Assembly (NCBI RefSeq): GCF_036169555.1
Contig: NZ_CP108032.1
Span: 6,572,001-6,636,000, forward strand
Origin: Streptomyces sp. NBC_00306
GTDB lineage: Bacteria; Actinomycetota; Actinomycetes; Streptomycetales; Streptomycetaceae
Length of the DNA stretch: 64,000 nucleotides
Direction: 5' to 3'
The notes under the pieces were generated by a model. That model saw only the letters and a list, made by a program, of their open reading frames with translations. It searched no databases and was not told the origin of the DNA. Below are positions 39,606 through 48,343 of the stretch, piece by piece. The stretch's first letter is position 1, and each line of letters opens with the position of its first letter. Both the position numbers and the translations under genes were made by a program.

Positions 39606-41024
39606 GTGCCGTCGATGCTCGATGCCGTCGTCGTGGGGGCGGGCCCCAACGGACTGACCGCCGCCGTCGAACTGGCCCGCCGTGGCCACTCAGTGGCGGT
39701 GTTCGAAGCCCTGGACACCGTCGGCGGGGGAGCCAGGACCGAGGAGCTCACCCTCCCCGGCTTCCGCCACGACCCCTGCTCCGCCGTCCACCCGCTGGGC
39801 GTCGGCTCGCCCGCCTTCGCGGACATGCCGCTCGGTCGGTACGGCCTGGAGTGGTTGCAGCCCGAACTGCCGCTGGCGCACCCGTTCCCGGATGGCACGG
39901 CCGCCGTGCTGAGCCGCTCGGTGGGGGAGAGCGCGATGTCGCTGGGGGCCGGGGACGCGGGGACGTACCGCCGGCTCGTCGCGCCGTACATCGGGCACTG
40001 GGACACGATGGCCGCCGACTTCCTGCGCACGCCCTGGGACGGGCTGCCCCGGGACCCGTACCGCTTCGCCCGCTTCGGGACGACCGCGATCCAGCCCGCG
40101 ACCTGGGTCGCGCGCCGGTTCCGGGGCGAGAAGGCCCGAGGTCTGTTCGCCGGGCTGGCCGCCCACGCCATCGCGCCGACCAGCGGTATCGCGACGGCCG
40201 GTATCGCCATGATGTTCGCGCTCGCCGCCCATGCCAAGGGCTGGCCGGTGCCCCGCGGCGGCTCGCAGTCGATCTCCGACGCCCTCGCCGCGTATCTGCG
40301 GGACCAGGGCGGCACGATCCACACCGGCGCCGAGGTCAAGCGCCTCGACGAACTGCCCCCGGCCCGCGCGTACATCTTCGACACCTCACCGACGGCCCTC
40401 GCCCGTATCGCGGGCCTCGGGAACGCGTACGAGCACTACCGCTACGGCCCCGCCGCCTTCAAGATCGATTACGCGCTCTCCGGCCCCATGCCGTGGACCG
40501 CGAAGGAGGCCCGCAGCGCCGGGACGGTGCACATCGGCCCCACGGCCGGCGAGATCGAGGCGGCGCTCGGCGCGGCTCTGCACGGCCGGCAGCCCGACAA
40601 GCCGTTCCTGATCACCGCACAGCCGAGCCTCATCGACTCCTCACGGGCGCCTGCCGGCAAGCATGTCCTGTGGGTGTACGGCCATGTACCGGCCGGCTGG
40701 GACGGGGACGCCACCGAGGCGATCGAGCGCCAACTGGAGCGCTTCGCGCCCGGTTTCCGCGATCTCGTGCTCGCCCGCGCGGTCGCCGGCCCGCCCGAAC
40801 TGGCCGCGCGCAACGCCAACTACATCGGCGGGGACATCGCCTGCGGCGCCTTCGCCGGACTCCAGACGATCCTCCGGCCCAAGCTCGCCCGCGTCCCGTA
40901 CGCGACCGCGCACCCCGCCGTGTTCCTCTGCTCGTCGGCGACCCCGCCGGGTCCGGGGGTCCACGGGATGTCGGGTCACCACGCCGCCAAGGCCGTGTGG
41001 CGCCGGCTGCGGGGCGCCCGGTGA
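39606..41024 (+). CDS. Phytoene-desaturase-like FAD-dependent oxidoreductase
   Basis: A 472-aa flavoprotein of the amine-oxidase/CrtI superfamily. The dinucleotide fold [19 protein letters not shown] (residues 9-27) is followed by [17 protein letters not shown] and ends with [14 protein letters not shown], where a CrtI-type C-terminal FAD motif is expected. No other carotenoid gene is near, so a carotenoid role is not supported; many streptomycete homologues are uncharacterised. GTG 39606 has AAGGAG eight bases upstream. Confidence 0.82.
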
Positions 41025-41067
41025 GGAGGCCACTGCGGCGGCCGGCACGCAGGCGGATGATGGACGT

Positions 41068-41601
41068 ATGACACAGCAGCAGCCGAAGATCGTGCTCGTC
41101 CGCGGGGACATCACCGAGCAGCAGGTCGACGCCGTCGTCAACGCGGCCAACTCCTCGCTCCTCGGCGGCGGCGGTGTCGACGGTGCCATCCACCGCCGCG
41201 GCGGCCCGGCGATCCTCGCGGAGTGCCGTGACCTGCGTGCCTCGCACTACGGCAAGGGCCTGCCGACCGGCCAGGCGGTCGCCACCACCGCGGGCCATCT
41301 GCCCGCCGGCCATGTGATCCACACCGTCGGTCCGGTGTGGTCACGGGAGCAGGACCGCAGCGCCCTCCTCGCCTCCTGCTACCGCGAATCGCTGCGCGTG
41401 GCGCGGGAGTTGGGGGCGGGCACCGTGGCCTTCCCGGCCATCTCGACGGGCATCTACGGCTGGCCGATGGACGACGGGGCCCGGATCGCCGTCCGTACGG
41501 TCCGCGCCGAGGCGGGGCCGCCGGTCGCGGAGGTGCGGTTCGTCCTGTTCGACGACCGCGCGTATGAGCAGTTCGCCGCGGTGCTGGCCGCGGAGGAGTG
41601 A
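41068..41601 (+). CDS. Macro-domain protein, probable O-acetyl-ADP-ribose deacetylase
   Basis: A 177-aa stand-alone macro domain. VVNAANSSLLGGGGVDGAIH (residues 23-42) and AISTGIYGWP are the ADP-ribose-binding loops of the MacroD/YmdB class, which removes acetyl from the sirtuin product O-acetyl-ADP-ribose and can de-ADP-ribosylate proteins. A sirtuin, a NUDIX protein and an ADP-ribosylglycohydrolase are encoded within the next 11 kb. ATG 41068 is 43 bp after the flavoprotein gene. Confidence 0.9.
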   Translation: MTQQQPKIVLVRGDITEQQVDAVVNAANSSLLGGGGVDGAIHRRGGPAILAECRDLRASHYGKGLPTGQAVATTAGHLPAGHVIHTVGPVWSREQDRSALLASCYRESLRVARELGAGTVAFPAISTGIYGWPMDDGARIAVRTVRAEAGPPVAEVRFVLFDDRAYEQFAAVLAAEE

Positions 41602-41803: not shown

Positions 41804-43279
41804 ATGCACACCGACACCGAGCGCTGCGTGCGCGCCGTCCGGTCGAAGGACGCCCGATTCGACGGCTGGTTCTTCACGGCCGTCCTGACGACGCGGATCT
41901 ACTGCCGTCCCAGCTGCCCGGTGGTGCCGCCGAAGGTCGAGAACATGACCTTCTACCCGAGCGCCGCCGCCTGCCAGCAGGCGGGTTTCCGTGCCTGCAA
42001 GCGCTGCCGCCCCGACACCACACCCGGCTCCCCCGAGTGGAACGCCCGCGCGGACTCCGTGGCCCGTGCCATGCGCCTGATCGGGGACGGGGTCGTCGAC
42101 CGTGAGGGCGTCCCGGGCCTCGCCGCCCGCCTCGGCTACTCCACCCGCCAGATCGAGCGGCAACTGCTCGCGGAGCTGGGTGCGGGCCCTCTCGCCCTCG
42201 CCCGGGCCCAGCGCGCGCAGACCGCGCGCGTCCTGATCGAGACGACGGGCCTTCCGATGGCCGAGGTCGCCTTCGCGGCCGGCTTCTCCTCGATCCGCAC
42301 CTTCAACGACACCGTCCGCGAGGTCTTCGCGCTCGCACCCGGTGACCTGCGCACCCGTGCCGCCCGCAGCACGACCGCCTCGCCGCAGACCCCGGGAGTC
42401 ATCGCGCTCAGGCTGCCGTACCGGGCGCCGCTCGACCCGAGCAATCTCTTCGGGCACCTCGTGGCCACGGCCGTGCCCGGCGTCGAGGAGTGGCGCGACG
42501 GCGCCTACCGGCGCACCCTGCGGCTTCCGCACGGCCACGGCGTCGTCGCCCTCACCCCCCGCCCCGACCACATCGCCTGCCGGTTGTCACTGACCGACCC
42601 GTGCGATCTCACCATCGCCATCAGCCGCTGCCGCTGGATGCTCGACCTGGACGCCGATCCCGTCGCGGTCGACGACCAGCTGCGGACCGATCCCCTGCTC
42701 GCGCCCCTCGTCGACAAGGCCCCCGGGCGCCGGGTGCCGCGCACCGTCGACGCGGCGGAGTTCGCCGTACGGGCCGTGCTCGGCCAGCAGGTCTCCACGG
42801 CCGCGGCCCGTACGCACGCGGGCCGGCTGGTTCTCGCGCACGGTGAGCCGGTCGAGGACCCGGAGGGTGGCCTCTCCCACCTCTTCCCGTCCTCCGAGGC
42901 CCTCGCGGCGCTCGACCCCGAGTCCCTGGCACTGCCCCGCAGCCGGCGCACCACACTGACCACGCTGGTCGGGGCGCTGGCCGACGGCTCGCTCCGGCTG
43001 GGCGTCGACAGTGACTGGGACAAGGCCCGCGCGGAACTGACCGCCCTGCCCGGGTTCGGGCCGTGGACGGTCGAGACGATCGCCATGCGGGCCCTCGGTG
43101 ACCCGGACGCTTTTCTGCCGGGCGACCTCGGAGTGCGCCACGCGGCTGCCGGACTCGGCCTGCCCGTCACCCCGGCCGCCCTCACCGCACGCGCCGCGGC
43201 CTGGCGCCCTTGGCGCGCCTATGCCGTCCAGCACCTGTGGGCCACCGGCGACCACCCCGTCAACCGCCTGCCCGCGTAA
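41804..43279 (+). CDS. alkA: Ada regulatory domain fused to AlkA-type 3-methyladenine DNA glycosylase
   Basis: A 491-aa three-part alkylation-response protein. Residues 5-75 are the Ada methylphosphotriester zinc domain (Cys34, Cys38, Cys65, Cys68). Residues 85-185 are an AraC-type HTH (VPGLAARLGYSTRQIERQL, MAEVAFAAGFSSIRTFN). The rest is an AlkA glycosylase with helix-hairpin-helix LTALPGFGPWTVETIAMRA (pieces LTALPGFGPW and VETIAMRA) and catalytic Asp441 in LPGDLGV. It would sense methylated phosphotriesters, activate transcription and excise alkylated bases. The stop abuts the ogt ribosome-binding site. Confidence 0.92.
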   Translation: MHTDTERCVRAVRSKDARFDGWFFTAVLTTRIYCRPSCPVVPPKVENMTFYPSAAACQQAGFRACKRCRPDTTPGSPEWNARADSVARAMRLIGDGVVDREGVPGLAARLGYSTRQIERQLLAELGAGPLALARAQRAQTARVLIETTGLPMAEVAFAAGFSSIRTFNDTVREVFALAPGDLRTRAARSTTASPQTPGVIALRLPYRAPLDPSNLFGHLVATAVPGVEEWRDGAYRRTLRLPHGHGVVALTPRPDHIACRLSLTDPCDLTIAISRCRWMLDLDADPVAVDDQLRTDPLLAPLVDKAPGRRVPRTVDAAEFAVRAVLGQQVSTAAARTHAGRLVLAHGEPVEDPEGGLSHLFPSSEALAALDPESLALPRSRRTTLTTLVGALADGSLRLGVDSDWDKARAELTALPGFGPWTVETIAMRALGDPDAFLPGDLGVRHAAAGLGLPVTPAALTARAAAWRPWRAYAVQHLWATGDHPVNRLPA

Positions 43280-43290
43280 GGAGTTTCCTC

Positions 43291-43782
43291 ATGACCAAGC
43301 AGTACACGGTGGTCGACAGCGCCTACGGCCCGCTGACGCTCGTCGCCACCGACGGCACGCTGAGCGGCCTCTACATGACCGATCAGCGCCACCGCCCCGG
43401 CGAGGAGACGTTCGGTGAGGAGGACCCGGCCCCGTTCGGTGAGGTGATCAGACAGCTGGACGCGTACTTCGCCGGCGAACTGACCGCGTTCGACGTGCCG
43501 GTCCGGCTGGAGGGCACCCCCTTCCAGCGGAGCGTATGGGACCTGCTGATGAAGATCCCGTACGGCGAGACGCGGACGTACGGCGAACTCGCCGGGCAAC
43601 TCGGCAGGACGAGCGCCTCGCGGGCCGTAGGGCTCGCCAACGGCAAGAATCCGGTGTCGATCATCGTCCCGTGCCACCGGGTGATCGGCGCCTCGGGCAG
43701 CCTCATCGGTTACGGCGGCGGGCTGGACCGCAAGCAGCGGCTGCTCGCCCACGAGCGCGGCGCGGAGGGCGCCTTGTTCTAG
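43291..43782 (+). CDS. ogt: Methylated-DNA--protein-cysteine methyltransferase
   Basis: A 163-aa Ogt/AGT that directly removes alkyl groups from O6-alkylguanine in a single-turnover reaction. The acceptor Cys128 is in the IIVPCHRVIG motif; GTPFQRSVWDLLMKIPYGETRTYGEL (pieces GTPFQRSVWD and IPYGETRTYGEL) and SASRAVGLANGKNP form the HTH and Asn hinge. TAAGGAG overlaps the upstream stop codon, so the gene is coupled to the Ada-AlkA fusion. A strong hairpin ends the operon. Confidence 0.95.
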   Translation: MTKQYTVVDSAYGPLTLVATDGTLSGLYMTDQRHRPGEETFGEEDPAPFGEVIRQLDAYFAGELTAFDVPVRLEGTPFQRSVWDLLMKIPYGETRTYGELAGQLGRTSASRAVGLANGKNPVSIIVPCHRVIGASGSLIGYGGGLDRKQRLLAHERGAEGALF

Positions 43783-43902: not shown

Positions 43903-46248
43903 CTAGCCGCCCGAGGCCCTGCGGCGCCGCATCCACCACGTCAGCCCGCCGCCCGCGACGGCGAGCGCGGCAGCCGCGGCGGCGATCAGGCCGACGGGCG
44001 TGCTGTTGCCGGTGTCGGCGAGGTCGCCGTCCGGGTCCTTGGCCGGCGGAGTGGTGTCACCGCCGGGCGTGGACGGTCCGGGTGCCGGGGTCGACGGGGG
44101 GCCGGTCGGCGTCGGGTCGTCGGGGCCGGTCGGTGTCGGCGTCGGCTTCGGGTCCTCCGGGATGGTTTGCTGATCGGAGGTGCTTCCGCCGAAGTAGGCG
44201 GTCTCACTGTCCTGGTAGGTCACCTCTGACTGGACCGATGTCCTGGTGGTCTTGTCCAGGCCGCGGTGCTGCGTGATGAACTCGGTGCGGGTGATGTTCC
44301 GCTTCGGCGCCTTGGAGAAGTCGACCCCGCCCATGGACAGGATCCACACCTTGCCGTCGTAGACGCGCTCGAACTTGTAGTCACCGTTCTTGAACGAGTG
44401 GACGTACTTGTCGTAGACGGTCTTCTTGTCCCAGTCCTTGTTCTCGCCCCTGAGCGGCCACCGCTTCACATCGTTGCTGTTGATGATCTTGCGGAAGTCG
44501 GTCGGGCTGACCGCGTCCTGGCGGCGGATGTACTCGGCCGCCACCCGCGAGGAGTACACACGGCGCAGATCGACGTACGACGCGTCGTCGTTGACGCGGC
44601 GTTCGAGTTCCGGCTGGATCATCGTGAGGATCAGGTTCTCGGCCTGCTTGGTCTGCGCCTCGGTGAGCTTGCAGTTGCCGGGCGGCACATCGGGTCCGGT
44701 GGGGACCTCCATGTTGACCTTGAGCGGCGCGTCCAGGATGTAGATGCCGCCGTCCTGCTCCCGGATCTTCGCGGGCTTCGGGGTGATCCACTGGCGGATG
44801 ACCGGCAGGCACGGCATGCCTTCCGGGGTACGCGGCGCCTCGCGCCAGAAGCGCTCCCCGCGCTCGTACTTGTCGGGGTTCATCGCATCCGCGTAGTCGT
44901 GCTTGAGAGTCAGGTCCGCCTCCAGCAGGATGCGCCCGGCGTCGGTCTTCGCGAACTCCTTGTCCATGATCACGTCGGGACGGATCGGGTTGAGGTTGAC
45001 CCAGAACTTGTCCGGGGTCAGGGCGAGCCAGGTGAAGAAGGCGTCCGAGGCGAGCTGGAGCTTGGCGTCACCGCCGTAGCCCGGGTTCTCGTCCGGGTTC
45101 TTGACGTAGTCGGCCTTCATCGAATAGTCGAGGCCCTTGCCCTTGACCGGGGTGCCGACGTAGTTGATCTCCAGGGTGGAGAAGTCGATGCCGCCCGGCC
45201 CGCGGTTGAAGTAGCCGCCGCCGTTGTTCTGGTTGTACATCCCCTGCAGCCGGCGGGCTTCTTCGAGCGTCTTCCCCGACCGCAGTGCCTGGTCGATGAT
45301 CGGCCCCCGGCCGCCCTTGAGGGGATCCGGGTTGAAGCGCTTGTCGTAGTTGGTGTAGACGTTCGGCTTCTGTGTGCGCTCGATGGCGTTCGACCGGCGC
45401 TCGTTGACCCCGGCCTGGGTGCGGTCGGTGCCCCGGTCCCGCTTGAGGTCGTCGTCGAACTGCTTGATCTTGGCCTTCGTCGAGTCCTCGGTCCGGGCGC
45501 CGGTGAGGTACCGGAACGTCGACTTCGGCTTCTCCTTGGCGATCTGCCGGTCCGCCTTGAGCTGGTCGCTCTCGATCCTGCCGTTCGACTTCGCCTCGAC
45601 CTTGCGCTCGGTCCGGCGGTTGTGCATGTCGACGACGCGGTAGCGCTTCTCCCCGGTCTCCGGGTCGGTGTACTCGATGACGTCCTGGCACCACCAGTCG
45701 GGACCGACCATGTTGTACTTCTTGACCATGCGGGCCTCGAACGCCTCGCCCCGCGGAGGGTTGCCGTGCGCGCCGATGTAGCGCACGTCGAGGTACCGCT
45801 TGAAGTCCTTGTAGCCCGTCGGGTTGTTGTACTGGCTGTTGTAGCGGGCGTAGATCTCCATGACCTTGTCGGCCGGGTTCTTCGTCCGGTTGAACTTGCG
45901 CTGCCACTTGCGGTAGTTCGTTCCCGCGGCCTCGCGCTGGGCGTCGGTCGGCGGCAGCACCCCGTCATAGGCCTTCGCGGGGTTGTCGTAGGTGTAGTTC
46001 TCGTCGTTCGGCCACGCCTCGTACGGAAGACTGTTCGGCGGCCCGGAGTTGGCGGGCGTCGAGGGAAACTTCTTCTTGAGGAACTTCTCGTCGCACCGGA
46101 TCGGCTTGACGTTGGGCGGCTTCGCGGCGTGCGCCTCGTCGAGTGCGGGCAGGCCCGTCAGGGTCAGGGTTCCCGCGGCGGTGAAGGCGATCGCTAAGCG
46201 CGCCCACACACGCCGATGACGCGCAGGTCGAGGTGTCTGAGTGATCAC
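43903..46248 (-). CDS. Large LAxTG-anchored cell-surface protein of unknown function, TTA codon in signal peptide
   Basis: A 781-aa secreted protein. The signal peptide (basic RHRRVWARL, then a hydrophobic core, AHA cleavage near residue 42) is followed by about 640 residues without a recognised domain, rich in Lys, Asp, Asn and Tyr. Then comes a Pro/Thr/Gly stalk (about 705-740). It ends in LADTG (743-747), a membrane segment and RRRR: a class E sortase signal like that of the long chaplins. Codon 18 is TTA (46197-46195), so translation should depend on bldA. GTG 46248 has GGGAG seven bases upstream. Monocistronic. Confidence 0.82.
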   Translation of the reverse strand: MITQTPRPARHRRVWARLAIAFTAAGTLTLTGLPALDEAHAAKPPNVKPIRCDEKFLKKKFPSTPANSGPPNSLPYEAWPNDENYTYDNPAKAYDGVLPPTDAQREAAGTNYRKWQRKFNRTKNPADKVMEIYARYNSQYNNPTGYKDFKRYLDVRYIGAHGNPPRGEAFEARMVKKYNMVGPDWWCQDVIEYTDPETGEKRYRVVDMHNRRTERKVEAKSNGRIESDQLKADRQIAKEKPKSTFRYLTGARTEDSTKAKIKQFDDDLKRDRGTDRTQAGVNERRSNAIERTQKPNVYTNYDKRFNPDPLKGGRGPIIDQALRSGKTLEEARRLQGMYNQNNGGGYFNRGPGGIDFSTLEINYVGTPVKGKGLDYSMKADYVKNPDENPGYGGDAKLQLASDAFFTWLALTPDKFWVNLNPIRPDVIMDKEFAKTDAGRILLEADLTLKHDYADAMNPDKYERGERFWREAPRTPEGMPCLPVIRQWITPKPAKIREQDGGIYILDAPLKVNMEVPTGPDVPPGNCKLTEAQTKQAENLILTMIQPELERRVNDDASYVDLRRVYSSRVAAEYIRRQDAVSPTDFRKIINSNDVKRWPLRGENKDWDKKTVYDKYVHSFKNGDYKFERVYDGKVWILSMGGVDFSKAPKRNITRTEFITQHRGLDKTTRTSVQSEVTYQDSETAYFGGSTSDQQTIPEDPKPTPTPTGPDDPTPTGPPSTPAPGPSTPGGDTTPPAKDPDGDLADTGNSTPVGLIAAAAAALAVAGGGLTWWMRRRRASGG

Positions 46249-46317
46249 TGGCTTTCTCCCCGTTGGAACCCCCGTTGTCACTGGGAGAGTTGCGCGGCAC
46301 CAAGGGGGCTCCGATGT

Positions 46318-46431: not shown

Positions 46432-47169
46432 TCAGAACTCGTCGAACTCCCCGAGCTCGCCGATCCAGGTGTCCTCCAGATCGCCGGTGGCCTCTTCGGT
46501 GTGCCGGACGCGGAAGACGGAGAGGGTGCGGCCCTTGCGGAACAGCGGGGCGGTACGCCCCAGAGCGAGCCGGACCAGACCTTCCCAGGCGAACGACCCT
46601 GGGGCGGCGTCGAGTTCGACGTCCTTGCCTGCCAGGTCGTCGGGGGAGATACCGAAGGCGTCGACGATCTCCTGCGGGGTGCCGAGGAGATCCCAGTCCC
46701 CTTCTCCGCTCCACCCGGCGGCGAACAGGCGCGCGCCGCCCGGGTGGTGGATCACATGGGTGCCGTAGGTCATGTTGTGGTCGATCGTCGCCGAGCCGAT
46801 GACGACCGCCCCGGGGAAGCGCTCGGACAGCGCGTCGGCCTGCTCGGCGAGGGGGAAGGTGCCCCCGGTGAACACCAGGGCGGGATCGTTGATCTCGGTC
46901 ACCGTTCCCCAGCACCCGACACCGACCAGATCGAGGTCGGCACGGGTGGCGAAGGGGGGCCGCTCGGTCGCCTCGATCCGGTCGGCCTCCTCCACCACGG
47001 TGCCGATGGTGCCGAAGGCAGCGGCGAACTCCCGTGCCCGCGCCGGGTCATGCGGGGGCAGTGCCTCCTTGCCGACGGGGAAGGGCGGCTCGACGAGGGT
47101 GAGCCTGAACTCGCCGAGCTGAGCGATGGACTGCTCGGGCGGGTACTCCCAGAAGTCGTTGTCGGTCAT
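46432..47169 (-). CDS. Conserved soluble protein of unknown function
   Basis: A 245-aa protein that begins MTDNDFWEYPPEQ. It is acidic and has no signal or membrane segment. Blocks such as GSATIDHNMTYGTHVIHHPGG and WSGEGDWDLLGTPQEIVDAFG look well structured, but I do not recognise a characterised family; similar proteins occur in other streptomycetes. A smaller unknown gene follows 28 bp upstream in sequence order on the same strand (47198-47587), so the two may be co-transcribed. Confidence 0.65.
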   Translation of the reverse strand: MTDNDFWEYPPEQSIAQLGEFRLTLVEPPFPVGKEALPPHDPARAREFAAAFGTIGTVVEEADRIEATERPPFATRADLDLVGVGCWGTVTEINDPALVFTGGTFPLAEQADALSERFPGAVVIGSATIDHNMTYGTHVIHHPGGARLFAAGWSGEGDWDLLGTPQEIVDAFGISPDDLAGKDVELDAAPGSFAWEGLVRLALGRTAPLFRKGRTLSVFRVRHTEEATGDLEDTWIGELGEFDEF

Positions 47170-47608: not shown

Positions 47609-48343
47609 TCATCCGCCGGACGGACCCCGGAGAGCCGCGAGGAGCTTCGGCAGCGCCGTGCCGATCGGCTCGCGGACGAGCTCGTCGGCGAGTTCGTCGT
47701 ACGGCGTCGGGTCCGCGTTGACGATCGACAGACGCGCGCCGTGCTCGGCCGCGATCCCCGCGAGCGACGCGGCCGGCTGCACCTGAAGGCTCGTGCCGAC
47801 CGCGACGAAGATCTCGCTCGCCTTGGCGATCGCCATCGCCTCGGACAGCACCTGGGAGTCGAGCCGCTGCCCGAACATCACCGTCGCCGACTTCAGAATC
47901 CCGCCGCACGCCAGGCAGGAAGGATCCTCCTCGCCCGCCTCGACCCGCGCCAGCGCGTCCTCCATCGAGGAGCGCAGATGGCAGCTCGTGCACACCACCG
48001 ACCGTGACGTGCCGTGCAGTTCGAGCACCTTGCGGTCGGGCATCCCTGCCAGCTGGTGCAGCCCGTCCACGTTCTGGGTGACCACCCGGACCGCGAACCC
48101 CGGCCGTTTCTCCAGCTCGGCGACGGCATGGTGCGCGGCGTTGGGGCGTGCGCGCCATGCCGGGCTGTCCCGGCGCATCTGCCAGGCGCGGCGCCGGATG
48201 TCCGGATCGGCCATGTAGTAGTCGTACGTGACGAGCTTCTCGGCCTCCGGATCGCGCCGCCACAGGCCGTTGGGCCCGCGGTAGTCGGGAATGCCGGAGT
48301 CCGTGGAGATCCCGGCGCCGCTGAGAATCGCGACGAGAGTCAT
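47609..48343 (-). CDS. cobB: Sir2-family NAD-dependent protein deacylase
   Basis: A 244-aa sirtuin. NAD-binding [15 protein letters not shown] (residues 9-23), TQNVDGLH (89-96), catalytic His110 in LELHGT and the zinc cysteines Cys118, Cys121, Cys143 and Cys146 are all present. It removes acyl groups from lysines, for example on acetyl-CoA synthetase, and yields O-acyl-ADP-ribose. By neighbourhood (near pssA/psd and the ethylmalonyl-CoA genes) it corresponds to the second streptomycete CobB (SCO6464-like), as I recall. Confidence 0.93.

Follow-up and report, generated by a model that had tools for sequence, protein, structure and literature searches.

In the window analyzed here, a 64,000-nucleotide stretch of Streptomyces sp. 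NBC_00306 (contig NZ_CP108032.1), the gene at 43903-46248 on the reverse strand encodes a 781-aa secreted protein that we predict to be a wall-anchored antibacterial effector. Its layout resembles that of a polymorphic toxin in reversed order, with the toxin first and the anchor last, and the product of the adjacent gene, a DUF6333 protein, is the candidate immunity protein. We put the probability of this interpretation at roughly 75%. It is drawn from three observations: a nuclease signature in the N-terminal half, N-terminal effector domains that are swapped among sister proteins, and a neighboring gene specific to the toxin type. An initial annotation had suggested an adhesin, an enzyme, or a developmental surface component. 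We found no positive evidence for an adhesin or a developmental role; "enzyme" was the closest of the three guesses, but the evidence points instead to a toxin-like effector.

Export and anchoring signals

The reading frame starts at a GTG codon (46248), with a ribosome-binding site, GGGAGAA, five bases ahead of it (46254-46260). Full-length homologues at 70-90% identity occur in five other Streptomyces, which argues that this is a real gene. No homologue was found in phage records.

The anatomy proposed in the initial annotation was borne out. Residues 1-41 (46126-46248) form a signal peptide with a basic n-region, a hydrophobic core, and an AHA/AK junction, and it is kept in relatives. Near the other end, a wall-spanning stalk that is 53% proline plus threonine (residues 690-742; 44023-44181) leads into the sortase signal LADTG (residues 743-747; 44008-44022), followed by a membrane helix and an RRRR tail (residues 748-781; 43906-44007). 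This is the layout of class E sortase substrates, whose signal is LAXTG (PMC5148588), and the genome carries 12 sortase-family genes, counted at family level. Anchoring to the wall by a class E sortase, also proposed earlier, is thus supported. The NCBIfam model strep_LAETG matches the protein with E = 1.3e-5 and 24.9 bits, under its cut-off of 30.

Between these signals lie two modules, a variable effector region (residues 42-350; 45199-46125; pI 9.7) and a conserved carrier domain (residues 352-646; 44311-45195) with the motifs GGIDFSTLE, FWVNLNP, and GGVDFSK. Single-protein searches of Pfam, NCBIfam, and the Protein Data Bank (PDB) gave no name for the ectodomain family and hinted only at the sorting signal; with PADLOC and profile searches added, they gave nothing usable for this protein. 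To that extent the earlier statement that the protein has no nameable family stands, but its relatives reveal the two modules.

A nuclease-like module at the N-terminus

We aligned the N-terminal domain across 37 diverged homologues of the same N-terminal type, whose identity to the window protein ranges from 18% to 91%. None of the 37 departs from G167, D207, E218, or K220, and Q229 is present in 36. An aspartate followed by E-x-K and a glutamine is the signature of PD-(D/E)XK nucleases, and the N-terminal half displays this pattern within a nuclease-like core at residues 152-268 (45445-45795). From this conservation, D207, E218, K220, and Q229 (45562-45630) are the predicted catalytic residues, and residues ~42-350 look like a DNA- or RNA-cutting toxin module. 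The only toxin families touched in Pfam by individual nuclease-type members are Tox-REase-7 and Tox-REase-9. Each was matched weakly by two members, below the cut-off and with insignificant E values (best, 0.025). A match to RWP-RK (E = 0.01-0.03) was judged to be due to chance or charge. Among 396 actinobacterial genomes, the nuclease core did not turn up in any other architecture. The N-terminal domain is diverging faster than the carrier, with mean column identities of 35% versus 54%.

The initial annotation had proposed structure prediction and a structural search. AlphaFold models of both modules were made, but they are poor (pLDDT 42 and 46), because the alignments held only related sequences that are all >70% identical. 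For that reason, the Foldseek result for the carrier model carries no meaning.

Effector domains swapped on a shared carrier

The carrier domain has no Pfam or PDB match. A profile of residues 352-646 detected it in 82 of the 393 Streptomyces genomes searched. In a phylum-wide sample of 396 genomes it turned up in 4, namely three Streptomyces (this genome included) and one member of another family. The match in genome G902 is a glycoside-hydrolase-like protein and was set aside as chance. A tblastn search of plasmid records returned three full-length matches and three that align to residues 354-691 only; in the latter, the N-terminal halves differ from that of the window protein. The same genome also has one full-length paralogue (C1:4361911-4364214; L013, L087), 45% identical, which fits the earlier statement that only a few such proteins exist per streptomycete.

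We extracted 103 carrier-domain proteins and clustered the regions that precede the carrier. The N-terminus is nuclease-like in 77, zinc-deaminase-like in 23, and of another kind in 3 (L125, L131, and L132), and the effector is N-terminal and the carrier C-terminal in all 103. The deaminase-like assignment reflects an H[ST]E motif with a C-x(n)-C pair after it, a layout found in 23 of the 26 non-nuclease proteins. Two of the sister proteins scanned match Pfam PF14440 (XOO_2897-deam) at E = 4e-19 and 2.8e-10 (69 and 40.6 bits versus a cut-off of 27); these matches belong to the sisters only, not to the window protein. The N-terminal ~230 aa of L131 and L132 make up a third effector type, without a name, on the same carrier.

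Some sister proteins have nearly identical carriers and unrelated N-termini. The carriers of L118, which is deaminase-like, and L125, which is not, are 86% identical, and their N-termini are unrelated save for a short linker. Similarly, L120 and L131 share 77% identity in the carrier and have unrelated N-domains. These pairs indicate domain swapping.

The two branches also differ in how they end. An LAxTG-like signal is present in 73 of the 77 nuclease-type homologues and in none of the 26 other carrier proteins, most of which end in a hydrophobic segment and a basic tail. A gene for a PrsW-family intramembrane protease (PF13367, E = 1.5e-8) adjoins 9 of the 26 sister loci and none of the 77 nuclease-type loci. 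The nine (L011, L118, L121, L125, L128, L129, L133, L134, and L135) are deaminase-type plus one other. PrsW has been proposed as a processing and release peptidase for polymorphic toxins (PMC3482391), and it may act as the release protease for the sister proteins.

Neighboring genes and their predicted role

The DUF6333 gene (PF19859, E = 2e-91; 46432-47169, reverse strand) lies 5' of the window gene on the same strand and encodes a 245-aa protein of pI 4.4 without a signal peptide. At the 77 nuclease-type loci, the 5' neighbor is DUF6333 in 33 cases, an acidic family (imm2) in 43, and neither in one (L114); no locus has both. One or the other is thus found at 76 of 77 nuclease-type loci versus 0 of 26 others (Fisher p = 2e-23, a value that ignores relatedness). 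Members of the acidic family are ~165 aa long and have no Pfam match. At five of its 43 loci, the use of stop-to-stop frames made the position a formal overlap; the annotated gene in L007 sits just upstream. We rejected the idea that the two are one family, as hhalign gave a probability of 2.6% and no alignment. On the toxin tree, loci have switched between the two families at least six times.

Both families have a median pI of 4.4 and lack signal peptides, and the N-domain is basic (pI 9.6). Taken together, the features of these neighbors are those that one would expect if they were immunity genes specific to a toxin (by the criteria of PMC3482391). We therefore predict that DUF6333 is the cytosolic immunity protein for the window toxin. 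A precedent for one nuclease toxin with two structurally unrelated immunity proteins is Tde5 (PMC13392607). The paralogue in the same genome is paired with the acidic family, so a single genome holds both pairings. No mention of DUF6333 was found in the open-licence papers searched.

DUF6333 occurs in 15 of 150 Streptomyces genomes, and 13 of its 19 places adjoin a nuclease-type toxin. The remaining places are extra or orphan copies, some of them in genomes without a nuclease-type carrier. At L057 (genome G524), a tandem pair of DUF6333 genes lies upstream of a single toxin gene, and two further copies are present elsewhere in that genome.

Alternatively, DUF6333 and the acidic family could serve the surface protein as export chaperones or as regulators. 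Strict adjacency alone cannot tell such partners from immunity proteins, and the acidic-family genes are mostly divergently transcribed. We nevertheless consider this unlikely, given that two unrelated families have replaced each other repeatedly beside homologous toxins, that their presence tracks the type of N-terminal domain, with neither family beside the 26 other carriers, and that orphan and multiple DUF6333 copies exist. A little less probable again is a surface nuclease without a cellular target that breaks down DNA outside the cell, either as food or to turn over biofilm. Secretion, the wall anchor, and the nuclease-like residues would all suit such an enzyme, but an external DNase requires no dedicated cytosolic neighbor, let alone one from either of two unrelated families at nearly every locus, and deaminase-like domains in the same slot of the sisters would make no sense for feeding. 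Least probable is a surface anti-phage device in which the effector attacks incoming phage nucleic acid and the neighbor guards the host genome: nucleases and deaminases would also suit phage DNA, and the neighbor would prevent self-damage, but injection carries phage DNA past the wall, so that it would seldom meet a wall-anchored enzyme, PADLOC matches are at chance level only, and orphan DUF6333 copies in toxin-free genomes better fit defense against a neighbor's toxin.

Other genes near the locus were assigned in part by eye. A Sir2-like deacetylase gene (47609-48343, reverse strand) and a macrodomain-like, ADP-ribose-binding reading frame (~41020-41601, forward strand), both recognized by eye, lie ~6 kb apart and flank the toxin locus on opposite sides. 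Adjacent DNA alkylation repair genes occupy 41804-43782 on the forward strand, one Ada/AlkA-like (by eye) and one encoding a methylguanine methyltransferase (Pfam).

Proposed mode of action

If the protein is an antibacterial effector, it would be exported by Sec and fixed to the wall by sortase through LADTG, with the Pro/Thr stalk displaying the nuclease-like domain outward. Upon contact with a competitor, or release towards it, the toxin would enter the cell and cut nucleic acid. The carrier would be the constant part for display, processing, or entry, perhaps acting in release, receptor binding, or translocation, and DUF6333 in the cytosol would protect the producer and its kin.

Several points weigh against this interpretation. 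A wall-anchored toxin must be released or make contact to reach its target, and no delivery machinery was identified. The N-domain has no Pfam or NCBIfam match over cut-off, and its sole PDB profile match, to an iron-binding protein (4m7o, E = 1e-4), was judged a chance match driven by charge. Its AlphaFold model is poor (pLDDT 41.6), so the nuclease fold is a prediction rather than a proven feature. In the carrier tree, all nuclease-type proteins fall into one clade, although with weak support (43); swapping is accordingly observed only in the membrane-anchored sister branch.

More tentatively, these proteins may represent a distinct class of actinobacterial weapon, in which toxin-first proteins anchored in the wall or the membrane use an undescribed ~295-aa carrier to deliver swappable N-terminal nucleases or deaminases. 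Release would depend on sortase or wall turnover in one branch and on PrsW in the other, and DUF6333 and the acidic family would be two unrelated immunity families. A toxin-first, wall-anchored family would itself provide a function for DUF6333, for the unnamed acidic family, and for the carrier domain, and would raise the question of how a wall-attached enzyme makes its way into a neighbor's cytoplasm.

Comparison with known systems

Polymorphic toxin systems, described by Zhang et al. 2012 (PMC3482391), share three features with the proteins described here. They place interchangeable enzymatic effectors such as nucleases and deaminases on a constant part, as in the membrane-anchored sister branch; they have an adjacent, toxin-specific gene for a small cytosolic immunity protein, a role that we predict for the neighbors at 76 of 77 versus 0 of 26 loci; and they are associated with PrsW peptidases, here a separate gene at 9 of 26 sister loci. 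In contrast, they begin with an N-terminal trafficking part and end with the toxin, whereas here the toxin comes first and is followed by the constant part and the anchor, and the text of PMC3482391 does not mention sortase or LPXTG. Because the reversed order holds in all 103 homologues, we view the family as a variant that may act like a polymorphic toxin, not as a member of the described class. Classical AB toxins also have the catalytic domain first and the constant domain last, a parallel to the window layout by analogy only.

Individual components have other counterparts. Tox-REase-7 and Tox-REase-9 (PF15649 and PF15650) have the PD-(D/E)XK-type residue order and weak hidden Markov model similarity to a few members, but the matches lie under Pfam cut-offs. 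Chaplins and other LAXTG proteins that serve as class E sortase substrates in Streptomyces (PMC5148588) have the same type of sorting signal, but chaplins are developmental surface proteins, and the ectodomain of the window protein is unrelated. The Streptomyces umbrella toxin UmbC (PMC11062931), an antibacterial polymorphic toxin, is accompanied by an immunity gene, but it belongs to a soluble multi-protein particle with lectins and has a C-terminal toxin and no sortase anchor.

No description of a toxin-first, wall-anchored architecture was found in the open-licence literature searched, and such a weapon is probably so far undescribed. Sortase-linked, wall-associated polymorphic toxins do exist, as WapA of Streptococcus suis demonstrates (PMC12704120). 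WapA-CT1 is a Sec-exported, wall-associated toxin of a Gram-positive bacterium and is linked to an SrtB sortase gene, but it is a 350-kDa protein with an Rhs/YD-repeat shell, autocleavage, and a C-terminal toxin, features that the window protein lacks. In existing descriptions of antibacterial polymorphic toxins the toxin is C-terminal, and a toxin-first, wall-anchored family would extend that rule.
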